Below are positions 44,855 through 50,541 of a stretch of 64,000 bases of DNA, piece after piece. The notes beneath the pieces were generated by a model, which made no database searches, was not told the DNA's origin, and saw only the letters and a list, made by a program, of their open reading frames with translations. How positions within the stretch are numbered: position 1 is the stretch's first letter; the number at the start of each line of letters is the position of its first letter. Source of the stretch: Actinoplanes derwentensis (GTDB lineage Bacteria > Actinomycetota > Actinomycetes > Mycobacteriales > Micromonosporaceae); NCBI RefSeq assembly GCF_900104725.1, contig NZ_LT629758.1:992001-1056000 (forward strand), in the 5' to 3' direction. The translations under genes and the position numbers were made by a program.

Positions 44855-44904
44855 GTCAGTAGCGGTCCAGCCAGAGGACGTCAGTAGCGGTCCAGCCAGA
44901 GGAC
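44855..44904. repeat. Perfect 25-bp tandem duplication at a stop codon
   Basis: The unit starting GTCAGTAGCGGTCCAGCCAG is at 44855-44879 and 44880-44904, without mismatch. The second unit contains the stop and final residues WLDRY of the lipoprotein gene (minus strand). The first unit carries an extra, now untranslated, copy of the same ending. Confidence 0.95.
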
Positions 44905-45549
44905 GACACCTGTCACGTCGTGCAGGACAGCCGCCGCGCCCGCCCGGATCGCGGCCGCGCACCGGGCCTCGGTGAACGTCGCCGGGTCGAAGGCCGAAGC
45001 CGCGCCGAGGCCCGCGCCGCGGAACGAGGCGCCGGTCCAGTCGACCGCTGTCACGTTGGCGGTCGGTTCGGCGATCTCCGCGCCCACGATCAGGAACTGC
45101 TGGTCGAGGTGGCTGGGGCTGACCAGGGCGAGCGGATCGATCAGGCCGTTGCCGGCGCTGACGATCAGATCCGGTCGCAGCGCCATGGCCTCGACGATCG
45201 CGTCGACGGGTTTCGTGGCGTCCGCGGTGACCGTCCGTAGCGACACGTCCTCCGCGGATGCCCAGTCGTGGACCGCTGTCACCAGTGCTTCCGCCGGGGC
45301 ATCGGTGCCGATGGTCAGCAGGACCACCCGGTAGCCGGCGGGCGGGCGCACCGACGACCACGAACCCGGGCTCGGCGTGATGATCGCTTCCGGGGTGGGC
45401 GGCGCCGACGGGTCGGTGAAGCCCGTTCCGAGCGCGCCCAGCGGAGCCGGAGCGGGCCGTGATCGGGACCAGTCGTCGTGGTCGGCACAGGCGGAGACGA
45501 GGACGGCGGTCGCGGTGAACAAGACGACGGCCCGGAGAAGGCGGCGCAC
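44881..45549 (-). CDS. Lipoprotein with binding-protein-like fold
   Basis: A 222-residue lipoprotein. I start at GTG 45549 with GAGGAC upstream. The longer frame to 45708 is not supported. Lipobox VLVSAC with C21. After a Pro/Ser-rich linker, the domain (VVLLTIGTDAPAEALVTAV, RPDLIVSAGNGLIDPLAL, HLDQQFLIVGAEI) looks like one lobe of a BMP/PnrA-type nucleoside-binding or periplasmic-binding-like fold. It is short for a full two-lobe protein (about 320). Ligand unknown. Divergent from the HupE-like gene. Confidence 0.75.
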   Translation of the reverse strand: MRRLLRAVVLFTATAVLVSACADHDDWSRSRPAPAPLGALGTGFTDPSAPPTPEAIITPSPGSWSSVRPPAGYRVVLLTIGTDAPAEALVTAVHDWASAEDVSLRTVTADATKPVDAIVEAMALRPDLIVSAGNGLIDPLALVSPSHLDQQFLIVGAEIAEPTANVTAVDWTGASFRGAGLGAASAFDPATFTEARCAAAIRAGAAAVLHDVTGVVLWLDRY

Positions 45550-45670
45550 GGTGATCGTCCTCTGTCGGGGGAACGGAGCTTTGCCGGGGGAACGGAGCGA
45601 CCCCTTTCCTACACCGGATCCCGCGCTGGTCCACGGGTTGCGCGGAGTTGTCGTCAGCGGTTCGCCCGGC

Positions 45671-45686
45671 ATCTTGATCTTGTTAA
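45671..45686. promoter_or_regulatory. Shared 16-bp motif upstream of HupE-like gene
   Basis: ATCTTGATCTTGTTAA, 25 bp before the HupE-like ATG. The identical 16 bases occur at 46883-46898 before the metallophosphoesterase. It contains two direct ATCTTG hexamers. Probably a common regulator site for the two units; identity unknown. Confidence 0.7.
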
Positions 45687-45711
45687 CCCGCGGGGTGCAG
45701 CGTGCCATCGC

Positions 45712-46857
45712 ATGTCATCGCTCCACCGTCTCCTGGTTCCACTCGCTGCCGCCGTCCTGATCGGAATCGGCGCCGGCCCGGCCGCCGCACACGGATTCAT
45801 CTCGACCGTCTACGCCGATGTCACCGCCGCCGGACAGGGTCACGTCCGGACCGTGCTGGAGCTGGAGTACGACCTGTTCGTCGTGTCGGCCGCCGACTCC
45901 GGTGGGAACGACGGCCTGTTCCAGGACGGCACCGCGGCGTTCGAAGCCGGTGACCCGCAAGCGCAGGCCGCCGCGCTGGACACCCACGCCACGACCGCGG
46001 TCGGCTACGTGACCAGCCGTTTCACGGTCGCTGCGGGTGGCCGGGCCTGCGTGCCGGTTCCGGTCGAGGGCTTCCGGATGGGTACGCGGGAGAACGTTCC
46101 GTACACCACCCTGGTCCTCGACTGGACGTGCCAGGCGGCAAGCGACTACGAACTGCGCAGCGTGCTGTTCCCCGCGTCCGAAGAGTTCGTCCGGGACACC
46201 AAGACGATCGTCACCTACGCGATCGGCGGCCGGACCGGAAGTGCCGCCCTGGACGCGGGCACGCCCGGGTTCTCCACCGCGCAGCCCTGGTACCAGCGGT
46301 TCGCCGAGTTCTTCGTACTCGGCGCCGAGCATCTGCTGTTCGGACTGGACCACGTGCTCTTCCTGCTGGCGCTGATCGCCGGATCCCGTCGCCTGCGGGA
46401 GATCGTGCTGGCAGCGTCGGCGTTCACCGCGGCCCACTCGGTGACGTTCATCCTGGCCGCTCTGGGCCTGGTCACGGTGCCGGCCAGCATCGTCGAACCG
46501 ATCATCGCCCTGTCGATCGCGGTGGTAGCGGGCTGGGACCTGTGGCAGTTGCGGCGAGAAACCCCGGCCACGGGCCGGCTCGCGGTGGTGTTCCTCTTCG
46601 GTCTCGTGCACGGAGTCGGGTTCGCCGGTGCGCTCGGGATCGACGAGCCGTTCTCGTGGACGCTGCTCTGGTCACTGCTGGTGTTCAACGTGGGCATCGA
46701 GACCGTGCAGCTCGCTCTGATCGCGGTCACCTTCCCGCTGCTGACACTGCTGCGCCGACGGTCGCCCCGGACGGCACGCTGGGTGTCCGGTGTGATCGCG
46801 GCCGGGGTGTCCACGATGGGGCTGATCTGGTTCGTGCAGCGCCTGACGGGAAGCTGA
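45712..46857 (+). CDS. HupE/UreJ-like membrane protein
   Basis: A 381-residue protein. I start at ATG 45712. A signal peptide ends AGPAAAH and is followed by a secreted N-terminal domain of about 170 residues. A C-terminal HupE/UreJ-like membrane domain has about seven segments with conserved His/Asp motifs GAEHLLFGLDHVLFLLAL, FTAAHSVTFIL and LVHGVGFAG. HupE/UreJ proteins are proposed nickel or other metal transporters, so metal handling is a reasonable guess. No hydrogenase or urease is nearby. The shared 16-bp motif links it to the downstream metal-dependent phosphoesterase. Confidence 0.85.
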   Translation: MSSLHRLLVPLAAAVLIGIGAGPAAAHGFISTVYADVTAAGQGHVRTVLELEYDLFVVSAADSGGNDGLFQDGTAAFEAGDPQAQAAALDTHATTAVGYVTSRFTVAAGGRACVPVPVEGFRMGTRENVPYTTLVLDWTCQAASDYELRSVLFPASEEFVRDTKTIVTYAIGGRTGSAALDAGTPGFSTAQPWYQRFAEFFVLGAEHLLFGLDHVLFLLALIAGSRRLREIVLAASAFTAAHSVTFILAALGLVTVPASIVEPIIALSIAVVAGWDLWQLRRETPATGRLAVVFLFGLVHGVGFAGALGIDEPFSWTLLWSLLVFNVGIETVQLALIAVTFPLLTLLRRRSPRTARWVSGVIAAGVSTMGLIWFVQRLTGS

Positions 46858-46882
46858 GGTCTTCCGGCGTACGCCATCAATG

Positions 46883-46898
46883 ATCTTGATCTTGTTAA
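46883..46898. promoter_or_regulatory. Shared 16-bp motif upstream of phosphoesterase
   Basis: Second exact copy of ATCTTGATCTTGTTAA, 91 bp before the phosphoesterase start at 46990. No clear -10 box is assigned. Together with the copy at 45671 it suggests co-control of the HupE-like and phosphoesterase/DUF916 genes. Confidence 0.7.
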
Positions 46899-46989
46899 TG
46901 ATCGGTTCATCGGACTGGACGAGCTTGATCCCCGCTTCCCGAACTTTCCCACTGGGAAGCGATCTCTCTCATCTACGGAACGGAAACCG

Positions 46990-48867
46990 ATGAGAACGCA
47001 CCTCATCCGTAACGGGGCAGTCGTCCTGGGGATGGCGGTGGCCGTCAGCGGCCTGGGCGCACCCGCCTACGCCGCCGACTCCGCCACGCTGAGCGCCGTC
47101 GTCCTGGGCGTCGGCGCCAACGAGACCCAGCGCATCGTGAGCTGGTACTCCTCGGCGGACACCACCCAGTCGGTCCAGCTCGCCCCGGCCGCTTCGGTGG
47201 TCGGCGGCGAGTTCCCGGCGAACGCGCCGACGTTCGCCGCCCTCGGCTCGGCCAACATCGCGAGCAGCGGCGGCTACAACCGGCACGCCACCATCACCGG
47301 CCTCGCCGAACACACCGCGTACCAGTACCGGGTGGGCTCGGAAGGCAACTGGTCGGCGGCGTACCCGTTCAAGACACAGGACTTCGAAGGCGACTACGAC
47401 TTCCTGTTCTACGGCGACCCGCAGATCGGGGCGTCCGGCAACGTGGCCAACGACCAGGCCGGCTGGACCGACACCCTGGACGTCTCGCTGGCCGCCAACC
47501 CGAACGCCGAACTGCTGGTGTCCGGCGGCGACCAGGTGGAGACCGCCAACACCGAAGCGCAGTGGAACGCCTTCCTGGCCTCCGACAAGCTGCGCCAGTA
47601 CCCGTGGGTGGCCACCATCGGCAACCACGACGTCGGCGGCAAGGCGTACGAGCAGCACCTCTACACCCCGAACACCGACCGTTCGGGCTCGTACTACTCC
47701 AACGGCAACCCGGCGTCCAACACCTCGGGCGGCAACTACTGGTACGTCTACAAGGACACGCTGTTCATCGACCTGAACAGCAACTCCTACGCCACCTCGC
47801 AGGGTGGCGGAGGCGACGCGGCGCACGTCAAGTACGTGACCGACGTGGTCAAACAGCACGGTGCCGAGGCGAAGTGGACCGTCCTGGTCTACCACCACTC
47901 GATCTACTCCGCCGCTGCGCACGCCAAGGACAGCGACGCGAAGGTCCGCCGGGTCGACTTCCCGACGACCTTCTCGGATCTGGGCGTGGACCTGGTGCTG
48001 CAGGGTCACGACCACGTCTACACCCGCAGTTACCTGATCAAGAACGGCCAGAAGGCGAACTCCGACGAGCAGCCCGGTGACGCCGAGGTGTTCGCCGGAC
48101 CCGGTGGTGTGCTGTACGTGACCTCGAACTCGGCGTCGGGTTCGAAGTACTACGACATCACCAAGCCGGACGCCAGCGGCACCAACGGCCCGGACCCGTT
48201 GAAACCGGCGAACTACTGGTACAACTCGGTCCAGAACCAGGAGCACGCCCGCACGTACGTCAAGGTCGAGGTCCGCAACGACAAGCTGGTCGTGGCGAAC
48301 GTCCGCAGCGCCGCCTCCACCGAGGCCGGTCAGCCGGTCGGCTCGATCGTCGACAAGGTGACGGTCCGCCCCTACCACGGTGACGGCCAGCAGATCCAGG
48401 TCGGCGTGCCGACGGCGGTTCCCGGCGAGTTCGGCTGGACCATCGACGGCCACAACGACCTGGTCGACCTCGGCACCGCGGTCGAGACGAACGGCGAGTA
48501 CTTCGCCGCCACCGGCAAGATCAACCCGATCAAGGTGTCGGACAGCCGCCGCTCCCTCTCGCCGTGGTCGATCTCGGCCAGCGTCGGCGACTTCACCGAC
48601 GCGGACAAGAAGTTCTCCGGCTCCTACCTGGGCTGGGGACCGTACCTGGCGACCGCCGGTGCCGGCGCCGAAACCGGAGCCGACGTGGCCTCCGGTTACG
48701 ACGACGACGGCAAGGGCCTGTCGGTCTCCCGTGGCCTCGGCTACGCGGAACAGGGACACGCCCGCGGCACGGCAGTGCTCGGCGCCGACCTGGATCTGAA
48801 GATCCCGGGCGAAGCCGAGAAGGGCAACTACCGCACCACCTTGACGATCACCGCGCTGAGCAGCTGA
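46990..48867 (+). CDS. Secreted metallophosphoesterase with WxL-like C-terminus
   Basis: A 625-residue secreted protein. Signal peptide to about residue 28 (PAYAA). A purple-acid-phosphatase-type N-terminal beta domain spans about 32-130. The calcineurin-like phosphoesterase domain has all five metal motifs: D143 in YGDPQIG, D181 in SGGDQVE, N212/H213 in GNHDVGG, H302/H303 in YHHS and H340/H342 in GHDHVYT. The C-terminal 140 residues (WSISASVGDFT, SGSYLGWGP, GNYRTTLTITAL) resemble the WxL cell-surface domain of Gram-positive bacteria. It would release phosphate or nucleosides outside, held on the wall by the DUF916 partner encoded next. Confidence 0.88.
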   Translation: MRTHLIRNGAVVLGMAVAVSGLGAPAYAADSATLSAVVLGVGANETQRIVSWYSSADTTQSVQLAPAASVVGGEFPANAPTFAALGSANIASSGGYNRHATITGLAEHTAYQYRVGSEGNWSAAYPFKTQDFEGDYDFLFYGDPQIGASGNVANDQAGWTDTLDVSLAANPNAELLVSGGDQVETANTEAQWNAFLASDKLRQYPWVATIGNHDVGGKAYEQHLYTPNTDRSGSYYSNGNPASNTSGGNYWYVYKDTLFIDLNSNSYATSQGGGGDAAHVKYVTDVVKQHGAEAKWTVLVYHHSIYSAAAHAKDSDAKVRRVDFPTTFSDLGVDLVLQGHDHVYTRSYLIKNGQKANSDEQPGDAEVFAGPGGVLYVTSNSASGSKYYDITKPDASGTNGPDPLKPANYWYNSVQNQEHARTYVKVEVRNDKLVVANVRSAASTEAGQPVGSIVDKVTVRPYHGDGQQIQVGVPTAVPGEFGWTIDGHNDLVDLGTAVETNGEYFAATGKINPIKVSDSRRSLSPWSISASVGDFTDADKKFSGSYLGWGPYLATAGAGAETGADVASGYDDDGKGLSVSRGLGYAEQGHARGTAVLGADLDLKIPGEAEKGNYRTTLTITALSS

Positions 48868-48879
48868 TCGCACCCCCTG

Positions 48880-48909
48880 GTGGGCGGGCGTCCTCCGGCG
48901 CCCGCCCAC
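48880..48909 (+). terminator. Hairpin between phosphoesterase and DUF916 genes
   Basis: GTGGGCGGGCG (48880-48890), 8-nt loop, CGCCCGCCCAC (48899-48909), followed by TTCTTCT. A strong 11-bp GC stem within the operon gap. It may act as a partial terminator, lowering DUF916 expression relative to the phosphoesterase. AGGAG at 48917-48921 follows for the next gene. Confidence 0.75.
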
Positions 48910-48930
48910 TTCTTCTAGGAGCACTCACTG

Positions 48931-49926
48931 ATGAAGACCGTCGTTGTCGCCCTGCTGGCCGCCCTGGCGATACCCCCTGTCCAGGCCGCCGACGGCGACG
49001 TCACCTGGACGGTGCGCACCGCCTCCAACAGCCTCGGCGCCACCCGGTCGAGCTTCGGCTACGACGTCAGCCCCGGCACCACCACCAGTGACGCCATGGT
49101 CGTCGCCAACAAGGGCACCGAGGCGGTGAACCTGAAGGTCTACACGGCCGACGGCTACACCACCGACGCCGGCCAGCTGGACCTGCTGACCGGCGACAAG
49201 AAATCAAAAGCCATCGGCGCTTGGGTACGTCCGACGAGCACCGCCGTGACCGTGGCCCCCGGCAGGACCGTCGAAGTGCCGTTCACCATCACGGTCCCCG
49301 CCGACGCCACGCCCGGCGACCACGTCGGCGGCATCGTCACCTCCCTGACCGCCCCCGACAAGACCGCGAACGTCAACGTCGAACGCCGCCTAGGCATCAA
49401 GATCAAGCTCCGGGTGGCGGGCGACCTGGCTCCCGCCCTGGCCATCGAGAACCTGGACGCCGACTATCACGACGGTTCGGCGACGGTCTCCTACACGATC
49501 CACAACACCGGCAACGCCGTGCAGACGGCCAGTCAGGCGGTCACGGTCAGCGGCCCGTTCGGCTGGTTCCGCGCCGACGCCACCGGAATCGTCACCCCAC
49601 CGGAACTACTGCCCGGCGAGTCCTGGCAGGTCAAGGTCCCGATCTCGAACGTCACCCCGGCGCTGCTGCTGACCGCGACGGCCACGGTCACACCGTTGCT
49701 GACCGACGCATCCGGCTCGACGACCGCCCTGAATCCGGTCACCGCCACCGCCACCACCTGGGCGTTCCCGTGGATGATCACGCTGCTGGTGGCCGTACTC
49801 ATCGCGCTCGTGATCCTCGTCGTGGTCCTGAACCGCAAGCGGCGCGCCCGTCGCAAGGAACGCGAGGACGAACGCGTCCGCGAAGCGGTCGAACAGGCCC
49901 TGCGCGAGAAGGACACCGCTCACTGA
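48931..49926 (+). CDS. DUF916 (WxL-interacting) membrane protein
   Basis: A 331-residue surface protein. Signal peptide to about residue 19, then the DUF916 peptidoglycan-binding beta domain (DVTWTVRTASNS, ATPGDHVGGIVTSL) and a second beta domain. One membrane segment (about 278-300) and a Lys/Arg/Glu-rich cytoplasmic tail follow. In Firmicutes such proteins bind WxL-domain proteins and peptidoglycan. Here the gene directly follows a phosphoesterase with a WxL-like C-terminus, so a matched pair is very plausible. Confidence 0.88.
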   Translation: MKTVVVALLAALAIPPVQAADGDVTWTVRTASNSLGATRSSFGYDVSPGTTTSDAMVVANKGTEAVNLKVYTADGYTTDAGQLDLLTGDKKSKAIGAWVRPTSTAVTVAPGRTVEVPFTITVPADATPGDHVGGIVTSLTAPDKTANVNVERRLGIKIKLRVAGDLAPALAIENLDADYHDGSATVSYTIHNTGNAVQTASQAVTVSGPFGWFRADATGIVTPPELLPGESWQVKVPISNVTPALLLTATATVTPLLTDASGSTTALNPVTATATTWAFPWMITLLVAVLIALVILVVVLNRKRRARRKEREDERVREAVEQALREKDTAH

Positions 49927-49968
49927 CACCGTGTACGTGACCTTGCCGTCCGGTGCGGAAACGGGTGT

Positions 49969-50541
49969 TCAGGGGTTGTGGATCTGGATCGGGAAGGACT
50001 GGGTCAGTGGGTTCGTGATGCCCGGGGCCGGACACCGGGCCCACAGGATCGGGGTGCGGATCGTGACGTCGGCGGGAATCGTGGCCCGCACGGTGAAGGT
50101 TCCGGTGGCGAGGTCGGTCGTCGTGGTCAGGTCGCGGCTGCCGGCGGTGGGTGCGGTGGCCAGCGGGCTCGGCTGCTCCTTTCGCTGCGCCATCGTCGGG
50201 CTCAGCGGGGCGCCCCGGTCCCAGCGAAGGCCGACCGACCCGGCCCGGCCCGGTGTACAGCCGGCGCCGGAGATCGTGATGAGGCCGCCGGAGACGGTCG
50301 TCGCCGGATCGGCGGTCAGTGTCCGGGGGTCGGCTGTCGTCGCCGGGGTGGGCTGATAGCGGTCGTGGCGGGTCAGCGGAAGAGCAGCGGTGGCGGCGGC
50401 GACCAGGACCACCGCGATGGCGGCGCCGCGGGCCGTGCGGCGGCGCTGGGCGCGGCGGTGCAGGCTCGCCGACGGCGGCTGCCGGGCGGCGAGAGCGCCC
50501 TCTTCGACCAGGCGGCGGAGGCTGTCGCGAGGATCAGACAT
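49969..50541 (-). CDS. Anti-sigma-factor-like membrane protein
   Basis: A 190-residue protein starting at ATG 50541. The N-terminal cytoplasmic part (MSDPRDSLRRLVEEGALAA) and a single membrane segment (about 42-60, GAAIAVVLVAAATAALPL) resemble the small membrane proteins encoded right after SigE-family ECF sigma genes. A Thr/Pro-rich outside linker and a beta domain with two cysteines follow. Its start overlaps the 52-residue sigma remnant. It may now be an anti-sigma without a sigma partner. Confidence 0.7.
   Translation of the reverse strand: MSDPRDSLRRLVEEGALAARQPPSASLHRRAQRRRTARGAAIAVVLVAAATAALPLTRHDRYQPTPATTADPRTLTADPATTVSGGLITISGAGCTPGRAGSVGLRWDRGAPLSPTMAQRKEQPSPLATAPTAGSRDLTTTTDLATGTFTVRATIPADVTIRTPILWARCPAPGITNPLTQSFPIQIHNP

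Follow-up and report, generated by a model that had tools for sequence, protein, structure and literature searches.

The window analysed here is a stretch of 64,000 nucleotides (nt) from Actinoplanes derwentensis (contig NZ_LT629758.1, positions 992,001 to 1,056,000 of the forward strand), in a genome of 10.65 Mb held on a single contig. It carries two neighboring plus-strand genes separated by 63 nt. The first (46990..48867) encodes a secreted metallophosphoesterase of the purple acid phosphatase (PAP) type, 625 amino acids long and ending in a WxL-like tail, and the second (48931..49926) encodes a DUF916/WxLIP-type membrane protein of 331 amino acids; an earlier note on this DNA had given the same coordinates and order. 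We consider it likely that the pair represents a two-metal phosphatase, secreted and induced by phosphate starvation, whose tail docks into the membrane-anchored DUF916 protein and so keeps the enzyme at the cell surface.

All features of the two proteins lie on the plus strand. In the phosphatase, a putative signal peptide (residues 1-28, 46990..47073), read from the sequence by eye and not by a predictor, is followed by a Pur_ac_phosph_N domain (residues 37-129, 47098..47376; PF16656, E 9.7e-16), a Metallophos catalytic domain (residues 139-344, 47404..48021; PF00149, E 7.8e-11) and the WxL-like domain (residues 464-625, 48379..48864), which forms the C-terminal end of the protein. The DUF916 call made in the earlier note for the next gene was confirmed by a PF06030 score of 45 bits against a cut-off of 27.3. 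Its DUF916 (PGBD) domain spans residues 32-136 (49024..49338; PF06030, WxLIP_PGBD). An AlphaFold2 (AF2) model of the protein adds a second immunoglobulin (Ig)-like domain at about residues 165-278 (49423..49764; strands at 170-277), where DUF3324/HBD would sit, and a C-terminal helix with a basic, presumably cytoplasmic, tail at residues 281-330 (49771..49920), whose transmembrane nature was read from its hydrophobicity. In NCBIfam, no family was above cut-off for either protein.

The WxL-like tail and the DUF916 partner

For the window tail, PF13731 (WxL) was the sole Pfam family listed (E 0.031-0.033, 14.6-14.7 bits). When 44 actinomycete tails picked for diversity were searched, 30 matched PF13731 at E <= 0.05, and the runner-up family was matched by three. 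An HtaA paralogue from the same genome, whose tail is 36% identical to that of the phosphatase, exceeded the cut-off as a whole protein (E 2.9e-14, 54 bits). Furthermore, comparison of 18 phosphatase tails with 17 small PF13731-annotated proteins by hhalign yielded an E value of 2.4e-7 and a probability of 93%. WxL domains are marked by an Asp at W-8 and an Arg at W-6 (PMC9772566). In the window these are D518 and R520, both of which, like W526, are unchanged in 81/81 phosphatases; among the 44 diverse tails the Asp is found in 42, the Arg in all 44 and the first Trp in 42. The AF2 model of the tail had a predicted local distance difference test (pLDDT) score of 82.9, and the nearest named relatives of the tail are those of Actinoplanes rectilineatus and A. 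couchii.

Several results limit a WxL assignment. The window tail exceeded the cut-off of no Pfam family (25 bits for PF13731), and no solved WxL chain was among the 50 structural matches listed for its model, which is still compatible with a shared fold. The profile used to gather the 17 small proteins was built partly from phosphatase tails, so that the hhalign test is not fully independent. The second WxL motif is missing as well: at position 620, which would be its place by comparison with the Firmicutes C-terminus, the 44 tails carry Leu (29), Phe (9), Ile (5) or Val (1), and Trp occurs in none of them nor in any of the aligned phosphatases. Tail profiles run against the sequences of solved structures also returned no WxL chain, and a tblastn search of plasmids with P0167, an actinomycete WxL protein, gave no match.

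The first motif of the window tail reads W526-S-I528, i.e., W-x-I. Because the second Trp is missing and the first motif takes this form, we describe the tail as a divergent relative of the WxL domain; as judged from profiles and hallmark residues, it is homologous to that domain, and it is not a canonical dual-motif WxL. Of the two motifs quoted in the earlier note, WSISASVGDFT corresponds to the W-x-I motif, and TLTITAL lacks the second Trp; the homology proposed there is supported by PF13731, hhalign and the hallmark residues, and the canonical motifs are not.

Turning to the partner, PF06030 was found in 62/62 scanned partner proteins, and PF11797 (DUF3324) was neither among the 22 families listed for the window partner at E <= 1 nor among the 25/26 families shown for those 62 proteins. 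The best solved match of the window partner is 9i25_C, a WxLIP in complex with a long WxL, in an alignment covering residues 23-279.

Linkage, cargoes and tail-less variants

The earlier note had suggested a co-occurrence search in relatives, and the linkage it expected was borne out. In a family sample of 150 genomes, the phosphatase (E <= 1e-100) was present in 23 genomes and the partner (E <= 1e-60) in those same 23, and in 23/23 the two lay less than 200 nt apart on one strand, as judged by comparing coordinates by eye. Chance neighborhood is rejected by this co-occurrence. In the A. derwentensis genome itself, three PF06030 genes and three tail-like domains were found, each tail directly upstream of one PF06030 gene. 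Named loci were also compiled, namely the best 80 of 302, in which the partner follows the phosphatase wherever sequence is available (76/76): 62 loci pass the script's adjacency rule, 14 are adjacent with a larger stop-to-stop frame overlap, and in the remaining four the contig stops right behind the phosphatase. The gap from the phosphatase to the start of the partner ranges from 4 to 270 nt (median, 74 nt; 76 loci). Genera represented include Actinoplanes, Asanoa, Dactylosporangium, Micromonospora, Streptomyces, Planotetraspora, Herbidospora, Cellulomonas, Microbacterium, Herbiconiux and Kineosporia. At class level, PF06030 was matched at E <= 0.001 in 48/197 genomes, above the cut-off in 41, and a WxL-like open reading frame (ORF) lay directly upstream, by the script rule, for 45 of the 61 DUF916 ORFs present in the extracted regions. 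These data indicated that the pair is widespread in actinomycetes and not peculiar to this genome.

On the opposite side of the balance, the 80 named loci are interrelated and best-scoring, and 16 of the 61 class-level DUF916 ORFs fail the adjacency rule. Sorted by eye, three of these failures are adjacent with overlapping matches, one has its WxL-like gene downstream, four have a WxL-like gene nearby on the opposite strand and three are at contig ends; of the other five, three lie behind tail-less phosphatases and two are without a clear WxL-like neighbor.

Two other layouts were observed. In L106, L110, L111 and L122, from small genomes of one family, a DUF916 gene and a WxL-like protein gene are close together on opposite strands, and in L097, L102 and L113 at least two WxL-like proteins surround one DUF916 gene, closer to the cluster layout of Firmicutes.

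The cargo joined to the tail varies. Among 61 WxL-like proteins scanned, HtaA was found in six, phosphatase domains in five and Big_3_5 Ig-like domains in three, with GH18, GDPD, peptidase M64, GH43, ricin lectin and ice-binding domains in one each; when nine WxL-like proteins were checked one by one, no Pfam domain whatever was listed for four of them. The GDPD version of the pair is locus L129. In the A. derwentensis genome, at about 7,944,000 (L002, contig C1), genes for an HtaA-WxL protein, a DUF916 protein and a haem oxygenase stand in a row, so that here the pair bears a haem-uptake cargo. Since the cargoes vary and PF06030 is kept in all scanned partners, these results support a modular surface-display pair with exchanged cargo.

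Altered loci speak to what the partner does. In L121, L125 and L145, all of one genus, the DUF916 gene is kept beside a phosphatase without a detected WxL-like tail (the shortened phosphatase was read directly for L145 only); L095, of the same genus, keeps the tail. These loci speak against a pure tail-anchor role; as the partner is kept beside three tail-less phosphatases, it may have a function beyond holding the tail. L151 (4562-6901) speaks for a tail-anchor role. There the phosphatase ends in what read as Ig-like repeats where the WxL-like tail would be, the Ang-2 gene described below is still upstream, no WxL-like ORF was found at the locus, and the best DUF916-type match is weak (E 7e-4) and at the far edge.

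A different function of the partner has to be weighed, in which the DUF916 protein serves chiefly as a chaperone for folding or export, bound to the membrane but not an anchor, and the tail binds the wall or nothing. PapD/FimC/CsuC-type chaperones, which are numerous among the structural matches of the partner after two WxLIP entries, would fit this explanation, as would the three DUF916 genes kept without a detectable tail. Against it, the top match is the WxLIP of a complex with a long WxL, the membrane helix is kept in the partner model, and L151 lacks the WxL-like tail and a clear adjoining DUF916 gene alike. We regard a mainly chaperone role as rather unlikely.

The enzyme, its control and the upstream genes

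Six metal ligands of the PAP site, none of them a tyrosine, were expected in the phosphatase (D143, D181, N212, H303, H340 and H342), and the six are kept in 81/81 phosphatases. The PAP tyrosinate ligand lies in a GDxxY motif. At the corresponding position the window enzyme has Glu184, within GDQVE, and no Tyr occurs at residues 180-190; the residue is Glu in 80/81 phosphatases and Asp in 1/81. GDQVE was paired with GDLSY of 6hwr by motif, the HMMER alignment being shifted at that spot. A classical purple acid phosphatase is ruled out by the lack of Tyr at this position. The enzyme should instead be a two-metal phosphoesterase that is not purple, and because Glu stands for the tyrosinate ligand, the substrates of classical PAPs are not to be assumed for it.

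The PHO box of S. coelicolor consists of 11-nt GTTCACC-type repeats, as quoted in PMC9019756. Between the stop codon of the Ang-2 gene and the phosphatase start, 37 of 78 regions score at least 11/14 for such repeats. In 100 dinucleotide shuffles of these regions, that score was reached by 0.78 regions on average and by four at most; the reverse strand gave 0/78, and nine other spacings from 7 to 16 gave at most 12/78. For the HtaA and stand-alone WxL-like paralogues in the same genome, short stretches ahead of the genes reach 9/14 at best. The corresponding site in the window, a PHO-box-like direct repeat GTTAATG-N4-GTTCATC (46894..46911, plus strand), scores 10/14 against two copies of GTTCACC; it weakens the case for phosphate control, as the same strand of the 64-kb window has 36 sites that score at least 10. 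The PHO case is carried by the orthologues, since the window site is weak, and the orthologues are related to each other.

Two rival readings touch on substrate and control. According to one, the enzyme acts on the cell's own wall or membrane polymers (phosphodiester, teichoic-type or lipid phosphates) and not on nutrient phosphate. Surface tethering would suit wall remodelling too, and with the PAP tyrosinate replaced in every phosphatase compared, classical PAP substrates are not a given; the PHO-like repeats ahead of the gene and the GDPD cargo on the same kind of pair in L129 point instead to phosphate scavenging, and we judge this reading unlikely. The other holds that the 11-nt repeats do not act as PHO boxes and that the gene is under some different control. 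The weakness and commonness of the window site, the mutual relatedness of the loci and the many Streptomyces rows that score just 8-10 would agree with it, but it leaves unexplained why 11 is the only period enriched among those from 7 to 16 and why neither the reverse strand nor the shuffles approach the observed count. We hold this second reading to be quite unlikely.

Between the phosphatase and partner genes lies a GC-rich hairpin (48880..48909, plus strand), with a mean z of -4.2 against mononucleotide shuffles over 77 regions and compensatory changes at 8 of 11 consensus pairs among 18 chosen sequences. A known RNA family was discounted, as Rfam gave no match above gathering score in 45400-50100. 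The hairpin could be an attenuator, a partial terminator or an mRNA end, and could lower the partner below the enzyme.

Upstream of the phosphatase, the window encodes an Ang-2-type anglerase joined to a HupE/UreJ_2 membrane permease (45712..46857, plus strand; PF13795, E 2.8e-39). Ang-2 is given as a copper-binding, actinomycete-specific domain in PMC12537917. In 77 of the 80 loci (all but L043, L069 and L081) a homologue immediately precedes the phosphatase in the same orientation, and it is fused to the permease in 73/77. The other four are L011 (A. couchii), L012 (A. rectilineatus), L017 and L021, where Ang-2 has no permease and carries in its place one hydrophobic stretch followed by a basic end; the notion that Ang-2 is always a permease was rejected. 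Because these four lose the permease only, the constant part is the metal-binding domain and not the permease. As read by eye, a His directly follows the signal peptide in the window (AAA|HGF), and it is found at the expected place in 76/77 Ang-2 proteins, the exception, L087, beginning at the frame edge. In the family sample Ang-2 stands beside the phosphatase in 20/23 genomes; it was not found in G261, G278 and G292 at E <= 1e-60, which counts against the reading favored here. Upstream of the Ang-2 gene, 11-nt repeats score at least 11 in 24/76 regions and a 13-nt spacing does so in 38/76, and as the latter outscores the former, we draw no Pho conclusion for this gene.

In the same upstream interval (45570-45711), 15 relatives that were read share a conserved element, roughly GTTCACCCGTGACGTGCAACGTGCAC, which is degenerate in the window; in relatives, a GTGCA-N3-TGCAC palindrome lies directly before the ribosome site. 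Farther out is a divergent lipoprotein-like gene (44881-45708, minus strand) with a lipobox, LVSAC, identified by reading, and without a Pfam match at E <= 0.1. Minus-strand frames resembling it are found upstream of Ang-2 in 59/80 loci, the query counted.

Proposed role and relation to known systems

We infer the following sequence of events for the surface-held phosphatase favored here. Phosphate starvation probably induces the gene via PhoP at the upstream 11-nt repeats, and the locus would then produce a secreted two-metal phosphatase retained at the cell surface. Once exported, the enzyme would dock through its WxL-like domain into the DUF916 protein from the next gene, itself fixed in the membrane by the predicted C-terminal helix; DUF916 probably donates a beta-strand or a hairpin, thereby completing the Ig fold of the WxL-like domain. 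The tethered enzyme would free phosphate from organic phosphates near the cell, and the hairpin behind its stop codon probably sets the partner below the enzyme. As part of this response, Ang-2 probably binds a transition metal at the cell surface, and such binding may outweigh import here, since four loci keep Ang-2 without the permease. The reading in the earlier note was supported as a whole, with the corrections that the tail is divergent, the pair widespread and the locus larger and probably phosphate controlled. That the tail is an unrelated generic beta-sandwich next to a coincidental DUF916 neighbor is very improbable and already contradicted by PF13731 in 30/44 related tails, the hhalign E value of 2.4e-7, the kept signature residues and the 23/23 co-occurrence.

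A broader extension is put forward tentatively, as possible rather than probable. In it, the pair is a general actinomycete plug-in for surface display: a PapD-like DUF916 protein anchored in the membrane would complete the unfinished Ig fold of the WxL-like tail by strand donation and hold exchangeable nutrient-scavenging cargoes (phosphatase, glycerophosphodiesterase, haem-binding HtaA and glycosidases), with regulation fitting each cargo, such as PHO boxes for the phosphatase.

WxL/DUF916 clusters have been regarded as surface systems that serve low-GC Firmicutes in adhesion and virulence, and more than 91% of 938 WxL sequences were from Firmicutes in PMC9772566. Our data place a divergent form in many Actinomycetota, bearing enzymes and haem-binding domains. 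The earlier note had called such a system little described. In the open-access literature our searches found nothing on the WxL-like tail or on PHO boxes here; the gene association of Ang-2, phosphatase and DUF916 is already in print, metallophosphatases and DUF916 being listed in passages of PMC12537917 (2025) as frequent Ang-2 neighbors in Actinomycetota. If docking is true, it would give actinomycetes a non-covalent means to retain scavenging enzymes at the cell and suggest a function for many proteins annotated 'WxL protein peptidoglycan domain-containing'. The locus would also be a clean model, with one enzyme, one partner and one regulator, for how WxL domains are held.

With purple acid phosphatases (6hwr, 4dhl and relatives) the enzyme shares Pur_ac_phosph_N, Metallophos and the six metal ligands; it differs in having Glu for the purple-making Tyr and in its WxL-like tail. 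None of the Streptomyces phosphatases PhoA, PhoC, PhoD and PhoX is known to be this enzyme with a WxL-like tail and a DUF916 partner. They are extracellular enzymes produced under phosphate limitation (PMC7866108), as is proposed for the window phosphatase. The window locus is the published Ang-2 anglerase neighborhood, and the tail, PHO repeats, hairpin and co-occurrence are not described in the passages of PMC12537917 concerned.

WxLIP proteins (DUF916-DUF3324-transmembrane helix; EfmWxLIP1, PDB 9i1y and 9i25) differ from the window partner in that PF11797 was not listed as a sequence match for its second domain and the NQIDKxxxYFDLK motif of PMC10599100 is not kept as such. Both have a signal peptide, DUF916, a second Ig-like domain and a C-terminal membrane helix, and the structure match to 9i25 takes in both Ig domains. 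The Csc/WxL layout of a small WxL, a large WxL and a DUF916 gene is not that of the window, where the phosphatase tail is the sole tail-like domain of the locus (genome search, E <= 10). Compared with the large WxL/CscC proteins of Bacilli, the motif here is W-x-I, the second Trp is replaced by an aliphatic residue or Phe (44/44), the cargo is an enzyme and the locus has no small WxL gene. In common with them, the window tail has the Asp at W-8, the Arg at W-6, the first Trp and a predicted beta-sandwich, and it stands at the C-terminus of a multidomain secreted protein whose gene adjoins one for DUF916.

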